From Deltaproteobacteria bacterium (GTDB lineage: Bacteria > Myxococcota > Myxococcia > SLRQ01): DNA of 64,000 nt. The stretch covers positions 1-64,000 of the forward strand of contig JARGFU010000009.1 of assembly GCA_029210625.1 (NCBI GenBank), given 5' to 3'. A model generated the notes under the pieces. The model did not search any database. It was given only the letters and a program-made list of their open reading frames with translations, and was not told the origin of the DNA. Of the stretch, positions 4,156 through 45,984 are shown in pieces. Numbering within the stretch: position 1 is the stretch's first letter; each line of letters begins with the position of its first letter. A program made the position numbers and the translations under genes.

Positions 4156-4200
4156 TGGGAGAGGCCGTGTACGTGTACGTGGACGTGTACGTCCACGACC
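4156..4200 (+). repeat. GTNNAC pentad element, copy 1
   Basis: The core at 4167-4196 is five hexamers: GTGTAC, GTGTAC, GTGGAC, GTGTAC, GTCCAC. The left flank is GGGAGAGGCC. The right flank (GACC) is weaker than in other copies. It begins 18 bases after the hemD stop. Confidence 0.85.
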
Positions 4201-4229
4201 TGATCACGCAGGCTCCCTGCGCTGACTCC

Positions 4230-4287
4230 AGGAGAACTTGCCGTGCACGTACACGTACACGTACACGTCCACGTACACGGCTTTTCC
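4230..4287 (+). repeat. GTNNAC element, copy 2 (six hexamers)
   Basis: The core at 4243-4278 is six hexamers: GTGCAC, three GTACAC, GTCCAC, GTACAC. The left flank is AGGAGAACTTGCC and the right flank GGCTTTTCC, the clearest example of both ends. It lies 25 bases from the stop of the convergent lipoprotein gene, so 4149-4303 consists almost entirely of two such elements. Confidence 0.88.
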
Positions 4288-4303
4288 TACGGCTCGCTCT
4301 GCC

Positions 4304-5407
4304 CTAGGGAAGGGCTCCCTGCGGCGAGAACAGAGTCACCGAGTCCGGGAACACCGGAACGGTGTACGTCGCCAACGTCTCGACGGTCCCGTTCAGGGTG
4401 TGCTTCAGGGTCAGGGTCCGGGTCCCGGCCTTGATGTTGATGGCCGCGAAGACGCCGTCGATGTTGGTGGCGCTGCGGCGGACATCGGGGTTCTCGTTGC
4501 CGTCGGTGAAGGCCAGCCGGCCCTCGACGCCCGCCTCGCTGTCCACGATGCGGCTCGCGTCCATCCCGTCGATCTCGACGATGATGTTGGCCATCTCCCG
4601 CCGGTTGCAGGCGGAGATGGTGCCGGCCAGGGCGGCCCGGCCCACGCCGTCGGTGAGATCGTCGGCGCCGTCGATGCCGGCGCTGATGCCCGCGGTCTGG
4701 GGGAAGACCTGATAGGTCGAGACGGCGATCACGGTGGCCGGCTCCTCGATGGCCTGCAGGCCGGCGGGATCCGCCGCGGCCCGATCGGCCCGCAGGACGA
4801 CCCCGTACTCGTAGGTGTCGGCGAACTCGCCGGTGGCGTCGGTGACCTTCACGATCAGGGTGGTGTTGGTCGGGACCACCTCGGCGCCGAGGTCGAAGGC
4901 GCCGCCGTTGCTGCAGTTCAGGCCGGTGAAGGCGCTGTCGACGTCGGAGGTCGCGGTGCCCAGGGGGGTGCCGGTGGCGCCGTCGGACATCCGGTAGACG
5001 GTGACGACGAGGCCGCCGGAGGTGTCGAGGTCGAGGCCGAAGACGTCCACGCAGCCCCGGAAGTTCACCATCGCCGGGCCGGCGGGGGTGGCGGGGGTGG
5101 CGTAGCAGCTCACGTCCGGCACCTCGAAGTCGCCCGAGCCGGGGATGGCCAGGGACTCGAAGGTGCACATCCCGTCGCCGCCGCGATCGGCCAGGTTGCA
5201 GATCGTGCCGCCCCGATCCTCCTCGCAGACCGAGCGGGCCTTGCAGTGGAAGTGCTCGGTGCAGCTGGTCTCGGCGCCGGCGGTGCATTCGTCGCCGCCG
5301 TCGGGGGTGCCGCCGCCGCCGTCGGTGCCCCCGCCGCCACCGTCACAGGCGGGCAGGAGGAGGAGACCGGAGAGCAGGGCGAGGGAGAAGAGCCGGGCGA
5401 GCTTCAT
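4304..5407 (-). CDS. Putative lipoprotein with Gly/Asp-rich linker and Cys-rich segment
   Basis: The predicted start at 5407 gives MKLARLFSLALLSG, a lipoprotein signal ending in LLPAC, with AAGGAG correctly spaced upstream. A Gly/Asp linker follows, then a short cysteine-rich module (CTAGAETSC, HCKARSVC) and about 280 residues with no catalytic motif I recognise. The C-terminal region looks beta-rich and may hold immunoglobulin-like domains. The 367-residue protein is probably anchored in the outer membrane. It resembles the lipoprotein on the other side of the DciA-like gene in overall design (lipobox, DGG linker, cysteine-rich module) but not in detailed sequence. The function is unknown. 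A longer reading frame to 5476 lacks a signal peptide at its start and was not chosen. Confidence 0.72.
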   Translation of the reverse strand: MKLARLFSLALLSGLLLLPACDGGGGGTDGGGGTPDGGDECTAGAETSCTEHFHCKARSVCEEDRGGTICNLADRGGDGMCTFESLAIPGSGDFEVPDVSCYATPATPAGPAMVNFRGCVDVFGLDLDTSGGLVVTVYRMSDGATGTPLGTATSDVDSAFTGLNCSNGGAFDLGAEVVPTNTTLIVKVTDATGEFADTYEYGVVLRADRAAADPAGLQAIEEPATVIAVSTYQVFPQTAGISAGIDGADDLTDGVGRAALAGTISACNRREMANIIVEIDGMDASRIVDSEAGVEGRLAFTDGNENPDVRRSATNIDGVFAAINIKAGTRTLTLKHTLNGTVETLATYTVPVFPDSVTLFSPQGALP

Positions 5408-5433
5408 GACCACTCCTTGGCAGTGGAAGTCGT

Positions 5434-5453
5434 GCAAAGTTGGCGCACTTTGC
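5434..5453. promoter_or_regulatory. 20-bp perfect inverted repeat upstream of the lipoprotein gene
   Basis: The arms GCAAAGT and ACTTTGC are separated by six bases. It sits between the DciA-like stop (5473) and the lipoprotein start (5407), both on the minus strand. It could be an operator for the lipoprotein gene or a hairpin ending the preceding transcript. No uridine run follows, which favours an operator. Confidence 0.45.
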
Positions 5454-5472
5454 TCGGGAGAGGGCGATCTGG

Positions 5473-44266: not shown

Positions 44267-44308
44267 CGGCACGCTCCCTCCCAAGAAAAATCAAGCAGTT
44301 ACCGGCAA

Positions 44309-44338
44309 ACCGTAACAGCGCCCGATCTGGCGAGTCAA
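44309..44338 (-). promoter_or_regulatory. Possible promoter of the outer-membrane protein gene
   Basis: On the minus strand, TTGACT, an 18-base spacer and TACGGT, about 45 bases before the start. An imperfect inverted repeat (GTTACCGG / CCGTAAC, about 44298-44316) overlaps the -10 and could be an operator. Confidence 0.4.
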
Positions 44339-44364
44339 GGAATCGAAGGGCCGGGAAAACGCCC

Positions 44365-45789
44365 TCAGGCGGTGCTCTCGTCCCGATCCCGCAGCCCCAG
44401 ATCCTTCATCTTCAGCTGCAGGCTCTTGCGCGAGATCTTCAGCCGGCGGGCCGCCTGGGTGACGTTGTGGCCGGTGGCCTCGAGGGCCGAGACGATCAGG
44501 TCCCGCTCGAGATCCTGGGAGGCGGCGCGGACGATGTCCTTCATCGAGGCCGAGCCGCCGGAGTCGAAGACCTGGCGCAGGGCCTCGAGATCGGGCTGGC
44601 CGTCCCGGGGCGCGCCCTCGGCCCGGGCGCGGATCGAGTCGGGCAGATCCGCCGGCCCGATGGTGTCGCCGTCGAGGAAGAGGAAGGTCCGCTCCATCAC
44701 GTTCTCGAGCTCGCGGATGTTGCCCGGCCAGGGGTAGCGCTGGAGCAGGTCCATCGCCGCGTCGTCGACGCCGCTCACCTCGAGCCCGAGCCGCTCGTTG
44801 AAGCGCTCGACGAAGCTGCGGACCAGGAAGGGGATGTCGTCCCGGCGCCCGCGCAGGGGTGGCAGATCGAGGGGCACCACGTTGAGCCGGTAGTAGAGGT
44901 CCTCGCGGAAGCGGCCGGCCGCGATCTCGGCCTCGATGTCGCGGTTGGTCGCGGCGATGAGGCGGACGTCGACCTGCAGGGTCTTCACCCCGCCGACCCG
45001 CTCGAACTCGCTCTCCTGGATCGCCCGGAGGATCTTCACCTGCATCTCGGGCGGGATCTCGGCGATCTCGTCGAGGAAGAGGGTGCCGCCGTCGGCGAGC
45101 TCGAAGCGCCCGGGCTTGGAGGCCACCGCGCCGGTGAAGGCGCCCTTCTCGTGGCCGAAGAGCTCGGCCTCCATCAGCTCCCGGGGGATGGCCGCGCAGT
45201 TGATCCGGATGAAGGGCTTCTCCCGGCGGTCCGACTGCTCGTGGAGGGCGCTGGCCACCACCTCCTTGCCGGTGCCGCTCTCACCGGTGATGAGCACGGT
45301 GGAGGGGGTCGCGGCGACCCGCTCGATGATCTGGACGATCTTCGCCATCGAGGGGGAGGCGGCGAGGACGCCCAGGGCACCGTCGGGGGAGTCGGCCGGC
45401 GAGATCTCGTCCCGGGCGAGGGCCCGCGAGCAGATGGCCTTGTCGATGACCAGGCGCAGGTCGTCCTGATCGAAGGGCTTCTGGAGGTAGTCGAAGGCGC
45501 CGGCCTTCATCGCGTCCACCGCGGTGTCCACGGTCCCGTGGGCGGTGATGACGATGACCGGGATCTCCCGGGCCTTGCGCTGGATCTCCCGGAGGAGGGA
45601 GAGGCCGTCGAGCTTCGGCATCTTGAGATCGGTGACGATCGCGTCGATGTCGTCGGCCTCGGCCAGCGCCAGCTCCAGCCCCTCCTCTCCGTTCTCGGCG
45701 GTGAGGGCCTCGTGACCCTCCTTGCGCAGGAGCGCGGCGAGGACCTTGCGGATGTTGGCTTCGTCGTCGACGACCAGGACTCGGGCCAT
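44365..45789 (-). CDS. NtrC-family sigma-54-dependent response regulator
   Basis: The 474-residue protein has a receiver domain with phospho-acceptor Asp54 (IVTDLKMP) and a AAA+ domain from about residue 145. The AAA+ domain carries GESGTGKE (Walker A), GAFTGA (the sigma-54 contact loop), FLDEIAE (Walker B) and RFREDLYYRLNVV. A Fis-type helix-turn-helix at the end reads HNVTQAARRLKISRKSLQLK. It should activate sigma-54 promoters when phosphorylated by the kinase encoded upstream. The start at 45789 follows GGAGGAAAG. Two GTNNAC elements separate it from the kinase gene. Confidence 0.95.
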   Translation of the reverse strand: MARVLVVDDEANIRKVLAALLRKEGHEALTAENGEEGLELALAEADDIDAIVTDLKMPKLDGLSLLREIQRKAREIPVIVITAHGTVDTAVDAMKAGAFDYLQKPFDQDDLRLVIDKAICSRALARDEISPADSPDGALGVLAASPSMAKIVQIIERVAATPSTVLITGESGTGKEVVASALHEQSDRREKPFIRINCAAIPRELMEAELFGHEKGAFTGAVASKPGRFELADGGTLFLDEIAEIPPEMQVKILRAIQESEFERVGGVKTLQVDVRLIAATNRDIEAEIAAGRFREDLYYRLNVVPLDLPPLRGRRDDIPFLVRSFVERFNERLGLEVSGVDDAAMDLLQRYPWPGNIRELENVMERTFLFLDGDTIGPADLPDSIRARAEGAPRDGQPDLEALRQVFDSGGSASMKDIVRAASQDLERDLIVSALEATGHNVTQAARRLKISRKSLQLKMKDLGLRDRDESTA

Positions 45790-45854
45790 GGGTCTTTCCT
45801 CCAGACGAGCGCACGGTAGCGGTGGGGGTCGGGGGATGTCCATGGGGGCGAGTT

Positions 45855-45906
45855 GCAGAAGCCGCGTTCACGTCCACGTGCACGTCCACGTACACGGGTT
45901 CTCCCG
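45855..45906 (-). repeat. GTNNAC pentad element, copy 6
   Basis: The core at 45866-45895 on the plus strand is GTTCAC, GTCCAC, GTGCAC, GTCCAC, GTACAC, followed by GGGTTCTCCCG. Read on the minus strand it has the full GGGAGAACCC left flank. It lies 76 bases upstream of the regulator's start. Confidence 0.88.
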
Positions 45907-45932
45907 TGTACCTCGGGTAGGGGACGGGCTCC

Positions 45933-45984
45933 CGGGAAAGGCCGTGTACGTAGACGTGGACGTGTACGTGGACGGGGCTTTTCA
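45933..45984 (+). repeat. GTNNAC pentad element, copy 7
   Basis: The core at 45944-45973 is GTGTAC, GTAGAC, GTGGAC, GTGTAC, GTGGAC. GGGAAAGGCC precedes it and GGGGCTTTTCA follows. The last three bases are the complement of the kinase gene's stop codon, so the element abuts that gene directly. With copy 6 it forms a large, roughly inverted pair separated by about 48 bases. Confidence 0.88.

Follow-up and report, generated by a model that had tools for sequence, protein, structure and literature searches.

What are the arrays of the hexamer GTNNAC that recur through the window (the whole stretch of DNA analysed here, 64 kb long): local expansions, host elements held in place by selection, or copies of a dispersed repeat?

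Arrays in the window

A sequence-only reading had listed seven such arrays, six of them in intergenic space. All seven cores are present where it had placed them, 36 out of 36 hexamers in the window sequence conform to GTNNAC and, tallied by hand, they reproduce its counts of the central dinucleotides exactly. The gene caller used here, a home-made one based on codon usage and the source of the distances to stop codons given below, also leaves six copies between genes and one (core 9510–9539) within a gene. A first-order Markov model predicts about 1e-9 (GTNNAC)5 arrays by chance in 64 kb. The description of the unit, however, has to be revised. Two free central bases had been proposed, but the unit reads GTGNAC, with a single free base, once the arrays are oriented by an adjoining tag, and the flanks that had been taken as a separate "before" (GGGAGAACCC) and "after" (GGCTTTTCC) are this one tag read from opposite strands.

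The first two modules, each consisting of a tag and its hexamers, form a +− doublet. Its first arm (4158..4196, plus strand) carries the tag GGAGAGGCC and five hexamers, the last of which is GTCCAC, and lies 18 bp past the stop codon of HemD (uroporphyrinogen-III synthase); the second arm (4243..4287, minus strand), with the tag GGAAAAGCC and six hexamers, is separated by 25 bp from the stop codon of gene 4304–5407 on the minus strand. The in-gene module (9510..9548, minus strand) is read in frame as PGEPVHVDVDVDVDE and belongs to the N-terminal part of an acyltransferase gene (8409–9803, minus strand), outside the Pfam domain. Two further modules follow: one at 31897..31935 on the plus strand, with the tag GGAAAAGCC and five hexamers, the core of which lies 8 bp past the stop of an adenylate/guanylate cyclase gene, and a partly degenerate one at 33248..33286 on the minus strand, with the tag CGAGAAGCC and mixed hexamers, the core of which lies 18 bp past the stop of an alanine racemase gene. 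The last pair is a −+ doublet with a core-to-core spacing of 78, in which a left-type tag, GGAGAACCC, precedes five hexamers in the first arm (45866..45904, minus strand) and a right-type tag, GGAAAGGCC, precedes five in the second (45935..45973, plus strand), 8 bp from the stop of a histidine kinase gene (45982–48234, minus strand). A scan added a probable decayed copy of a second family, absent from the original seven (25177..25215, minus strand; tag GGAAAAGAC, hexamers GGGGAC/GAGGAC/GGGGAC/GGCAAC). Searches of the window against Rfam and for tRNAs gave no match.

The module and its copies in the genome

The sequence-only reading had also suggested counting the copies genome-wide. In the whole genome (6.11 Mb, 64 contigs), (GTNNAC)5 is dispersed, with 65 forward matches, (GTNNAC)4 has 147, the reversed-pattern control has none, and the copies usually lie just behind stop codons. 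About 89 tagged copies of this first family were found in a 1.6-Mb sample, half of which was chosen around known copies. Extrapolation gives an estimated total of ~135 loci, a figure that is perhaps somewhat high and that rests on the 19 loci counted in 864 kb, which are mostly contiguous and were partly picked for known copies.

Alignment of the copies by their tag over ~1.6 Mb of the genome defines an asymmetric module of ~45 bp, [C.CG]GGARARSCC-(GTGNAC)5-GG, in which a tag of 9 bases precedes five hexamers, each with a single free base, and GG forms a sharp end. The first five tag positions are G (95–96%), G (95%), A (92%), a purine and A (95%). Among 100 aligned sites, which count each compact palindrome twice, the CC that precedes the array is invariant, like G1 of units 1–4 (both 100%), C6 of these units is kept in 99–100% and A5 in 97–100%. 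T2 and G3 are more tolerant of change (the third base is G in 77–96% of copies), and at the free position T, C and G are found, but rarely A. The number of units peaks sharply at five, and many arrays scored as having three or four units contain a mutated unit adjoining intact ones. Tag and array go together, in that an intergenic CGGGARARNC has behind it either four or five GNNNAC units (three in one case) or none at all, never one or two.

Half-decayed copies are scarce, with 0, 1, 2 and 3 mismatches in units 1–4 at 50, 33, 4 and 2 sites, respectively; sites with more than three are mostly chance matches in coding sequence, truncated arrays or copies of the second family. The strings of free bases are nearly as diverse as random ones (74 distinct strings versus 79 expected, range 71–86) and duplicates are not in excess, so the copies do not stem from one recent burst. 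One array of nine units (L114 9877–9930, contig C26:22877–22930) alternates strictly between GTGGAC and GTGTAC, and is likely a local expansion of a five-unit module by 12-bp slippage.

A module may stand alone, form a compact palindrome or pair with another in an inverted doublet. Such doublets are frequent, and their commonest kind is −+. In 14 of 15 −+ doublets the spacing is 77–81 bp, and in one it is 72 bp, while the spacers are unrelated to each other outside the tags. The two arms differ in tag type, typically GGAGAACCC versus GGAAAGGCC, and the sixth tag base is the same in 2 of 22 doublet pairs versus 9.6 expected (permutation p=0.0005, or ~0.005 when corrected for the nine positions examined). 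Base pairing between the arms does not constrain the free base, as pairing there amounts to 35% versus 37% by chance, with no co-variation. Single modules mostly carry the tag GGAGAGGCC or GGAGAAGCC and differ in this from −+ doublets (Fisher p=2.8e-5, with a tag list picked after the doublets had been seen); the composition of the free base differs as well (p=0.0006). They seem to form a separate sub-population. A derivation from doublets by decay was rejected, because the tags are different, partner remnants are missing near most singles, and singles are no more decayed than −+ doublets (on average 0.97 versus 1.17 core mismatches).

Of 65 classified loci, 55 are intergenic. The distance to the flanking stop codon has a median of 13 nt and is at most 27 nt in 56 of 64 values; the median distance to the flanking start codon is 67.5 nt. 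Convergent gaps are over-used (17 of the 55 intergenic loci, for 15% of gap bases) and divergent ones under-used (8 loci, 32%), and both orientations relative to the adjoining gene are found. All five clear in-gene copies (the one at 9510 in the window, L084, L105, L117 and L118) are read in one frame, GGA GAR SCC GTG NAC; they encode linkers or tails, e.g. PGEPVHVDVDVDVD, outside the Pfam domains detected there, and are plausibly tolerated insertions.

The same genome holds a second family, GGARAAGAC-(GGNRAC)5-GG, which matches 18 times when as many as two mismatches are allowed; the control has no match. Its loci (L156–L165 and window 25177–25215) are often inverted pairs and are not self-complementary. 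First-family modules are predicted to fold at −17.5 kcal/mol versus −10.2 kcal/mol for shuffled sequences, in 93% of copies the GTGNAC strand has a better fold than the complementary one, and the predicted RNA folds of modules and doublets are stable. The second family folds like its shuffles (−5.4 versus −5.6 kcal/mol) and not as a hairpin. Common to the families are the tag and the string ACG, which returns every six bases, rather than a hairpin.

Mobility, or selection in place

The population of elements is real, genome-wide and lineage-restricted. A genome of the sister genus, 85% complete, has no copy of the module. The GTGNAC form was also sought in 194 further genomes of the phylum and in a collection of 84,980 species, which may omit records near the window's genome; it is missing from both, save three isolated untagged matches in the former and two untagged ones in the latter. 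Isolated (GTGNAC)4 matches (Streptomyces bambusae, G019, G039, G112, L082) were rejected as copies, as these repeats lack the tag. The idea that copies might exist only in the window fails within the genome, and holds in that the GTGNAC form is confined to this genome among those searched. This confinement and the absence from the sister-genus genome fit gain or mobility, short of proof.

Four Y1 transposase genes were found in the genome. One of them, a RAYT-like gene (L124 1–1020, contig C26), has an inverted second-family (GGNRAC)5 doublet directly upstream. This doublet itself closely follows the neighbouring gene's stop codon, and the contig begins shortly beyond the 3′ end of the transposase gene. 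The gene scores 64.5 bits against the NCBIfam model of REP-associated transposases, under the 80-bit cut-off, and the adjacency is only suggestive because a rough count, allowing any Y1 gene and about a dozen second-family loci, puts its chance occurrence at a few percent. Relatives of this gene in other genomes have no arrays nearby. No first-family copy stands beside any of the four genes, some flanks of which are cut by contig ends; such ends lie at three of the genes (both ends of C26 and the end of C28). Another of the Y1 genes (contig C1:484839–485735) lies between inverted repeats around AACCAGGATAGTTT / AAACTATCCTGGTT and forms a TIR-flanked element (L125 ~1300–2560) unrelated to the hexamer modules. 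It was rejected as their mobiliser, since genes of its type are widespread in genomes without arrays.

Known systems offer partial parallels. REPs are reported to lie near stop codons, to over-use convergent gaps and to under-use divergent ones (PMC3733652); gaps between co-directional genes are likewise favoured by REPs. Like the REPs and BIMEs of the GTAG and CGTC super-families, the modules are short, mostly intergenic, present in 100 or more copies and close to stops, with a conserved motif at one end, inverted dimers and several families per genome; unlike them, they have a GGAR tag in place of GTAG or CGTC and, where those have a single stem-loop, five directly repeated hexamers that each leave one base free, and their sibling family is not self-complementary (PMC3733652). 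In REPINs, the two parts stand at a fixed distance and the spacer is constrained by length and hairpin (PMC3116915). The modules resemble the RAYT-associated REPINs of Pseudomonas fluorescens SBW25 in their fixed-length inverted doublet, variable spacer and high copy number, and differ in that their singlets are not decayed remnants, no RAYT was found beside first-family copies in the flanks that the contigs cover and left and right tags are systematically different (PMC3116915). As with TnpAREP and the REPtron, Y1 genes are present, one with an inverted sibling-family doublet directly upstream, and one strand outfolds its complement, as REP does iREP; unlike in that system, the candidate transposase falls below the NCBIfam cut-off and the adjacency is a single one (PMC8266576). 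In the open-licence literature, we found no paper on such repeats in myxobacteria. Iteron-type binding arrays, known from transposon ends and origins, repeat a unit in one direction, with a set period and copy number, next to a boundary motif. The modules share these features with iterons, which is a resemblance only, and would differ from them in a period of six bases, one of which is entirely free, and in their dispersed siting.

The balance tips slightly towards the arrays being short, dispersed, non-autonomous repeats of REP/REPIN-like character, recognised via tag and hexamer array. They are not REPs or REPINs in the strict sense, given the tag, the state of the singlets and the lack of a hairpin in the second family. 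A trans-acting recombinase, most plausibly a single-strand transposase of the Y1/RAYT type, would recognise the tag and the hexamers and copy the element; the tag and GTG.AC would be what this recognition preserves, and the free base and the spacer would drift to saturation over many rounds of copying. Sites near stop codons would then be those where insertion is tolerated, and RNA 3′ ends might be affected as a by-product. The ~89 sharply bounded copies, the fixed-length doublets, their unrelated spacers and their two types of tag, the siting behind stop codons, the single frame within genes and the strand-biased folding speak for this mobile-repeat reading, as do the absence from the sister genus, the four Y1 genes and the doublet upstream of one of them. 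Against it stand Y1 genes without first-family neighbours, relatives of the RAYT-like gene without arrays, intact singlets, a second family without a hairpin and the small number of half-decayed copies. No target duplication was seen at the copies.

A long-lived copying population filtered at the recognised positions would have a saturated free base and near-intact fixed positions, and selection in place would look alike. It is possible, although on the whole we think it unlikely, that the arrays are cis-elements of the host that were never transposed, either tandem binding sites or 3′-end RNA hairpins (a terminator, an exonuclease barrier or the target of a ring protein that reads every six bases) maintained behind stop codons. 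Their median position 13 nt after stops, the stable predicted folds, the scarcity of half-decayed copies, singles as intact as doublets and the one spacer-like free base per unit would all suit such a function. However, the estimated ~135 loci serve only a small part of several thousand genes, some copies lie in genes and a few in divergent gaps, either orientation to the gene occurs, and no U-run follows the module; the fixed doublet length, unrelated spacers and two tag types point to a unit copied whole.

Improbable, in our view, is a MITE of another transposon, DDE or TIR-flanked Y1, whose ends would carry five iteron-like 6-base binding sites. The inverted ends, non-identical tags and fixed internal length are consistent with it, as are the second family, in which the array matters without a hairpin, and the presence of a TIR-flanked Y1 gene in the genome. 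Yet the TIR of that gene is unlike the module, no autonomous element with module ends was found near the Y1 genes, and singles form a sub-population of their own. We give very little credence to hexanucleotide microsatellites formed by slipped-strand replication or to clustered restriction-modification sites. Ordinary slippage had been denied at the outset on the grounds that the GT..AC frame is kept, and this constraint is borne out; most copies have five units and these differ at the free base; the alternating nine-unit array resembles a slippage product. GTNNAC is a known modification target, and each array had accordingly been suggested to be a cluster of such sites. The oriented unit is strand-asymmetric, leaves one central base free where a site cluster would leave two, carries its tag on one side and is usually repeated exactly five times; nor is GTNNAC avoided or depleted in the window, where 221 single sites are found versus 114 expected in a first-order Markov model.

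Tagged arrays in other genomes

A relaxed pattern, the tag followed by (GNNNAC)4, has 93 matches in the window's genome and none in the control. It also has 20 and 17 matches in two genomes of the same class, with the hexamers GGGCAC/GTTCAC and GGTGAC/GGGCAC, and one match in each of four further genomes. At loci of the class relatives G034 (L129, L135, L138, L141, L144, L147) and G035 (L130, L136, L139, L142, L145), GGAGAAGCC is followed by hexamers, and extra repeats of the type GGGCCAC lie upstream. These elements are more complex around the tag, and common descent with those of the window's genome is therefore not established. An acidobacterial MAG, Thermoanaerobaculaceae Prado014, holds three tagged arrays (L184, L185, L186), in which GGAGAAGCC or GGAGATTCC precedes GTCCAC/GACCAC; none of this type occurs in 16 other genomes of its family. 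Viral contigs gave no match to the array.

A bolder and rather doubtful reading is that these arrays together represent a new class of dispersed element, patchy across Myxococcota and one acidobacterium, with a GGAGARSCC-like tag and about five hexamers [ACG-NNN]. The hexamer dialect (GTGNAC, GGNRAC, GGGCAC/GTTCAC, GWCCAC) would vary by family and genome, and a putative protein would read one unit every 6 bases along the array, whether or not a hairpin forms. Descriptions of REP-like elements usually concern short palindromes; a body of five 6-base units, each with a free base, is unusual. With five of six bases intact in each tandem hexamer and the sixth saturated, the arrays would amount to a natural read-out of the contacts of a mobilising or binding protein, and sibling families with the same tag and a changed hexamer offer a ready comparison for the co-evolution of recognition. 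In G035, three copies stand in tandem, ~158 bp apart.
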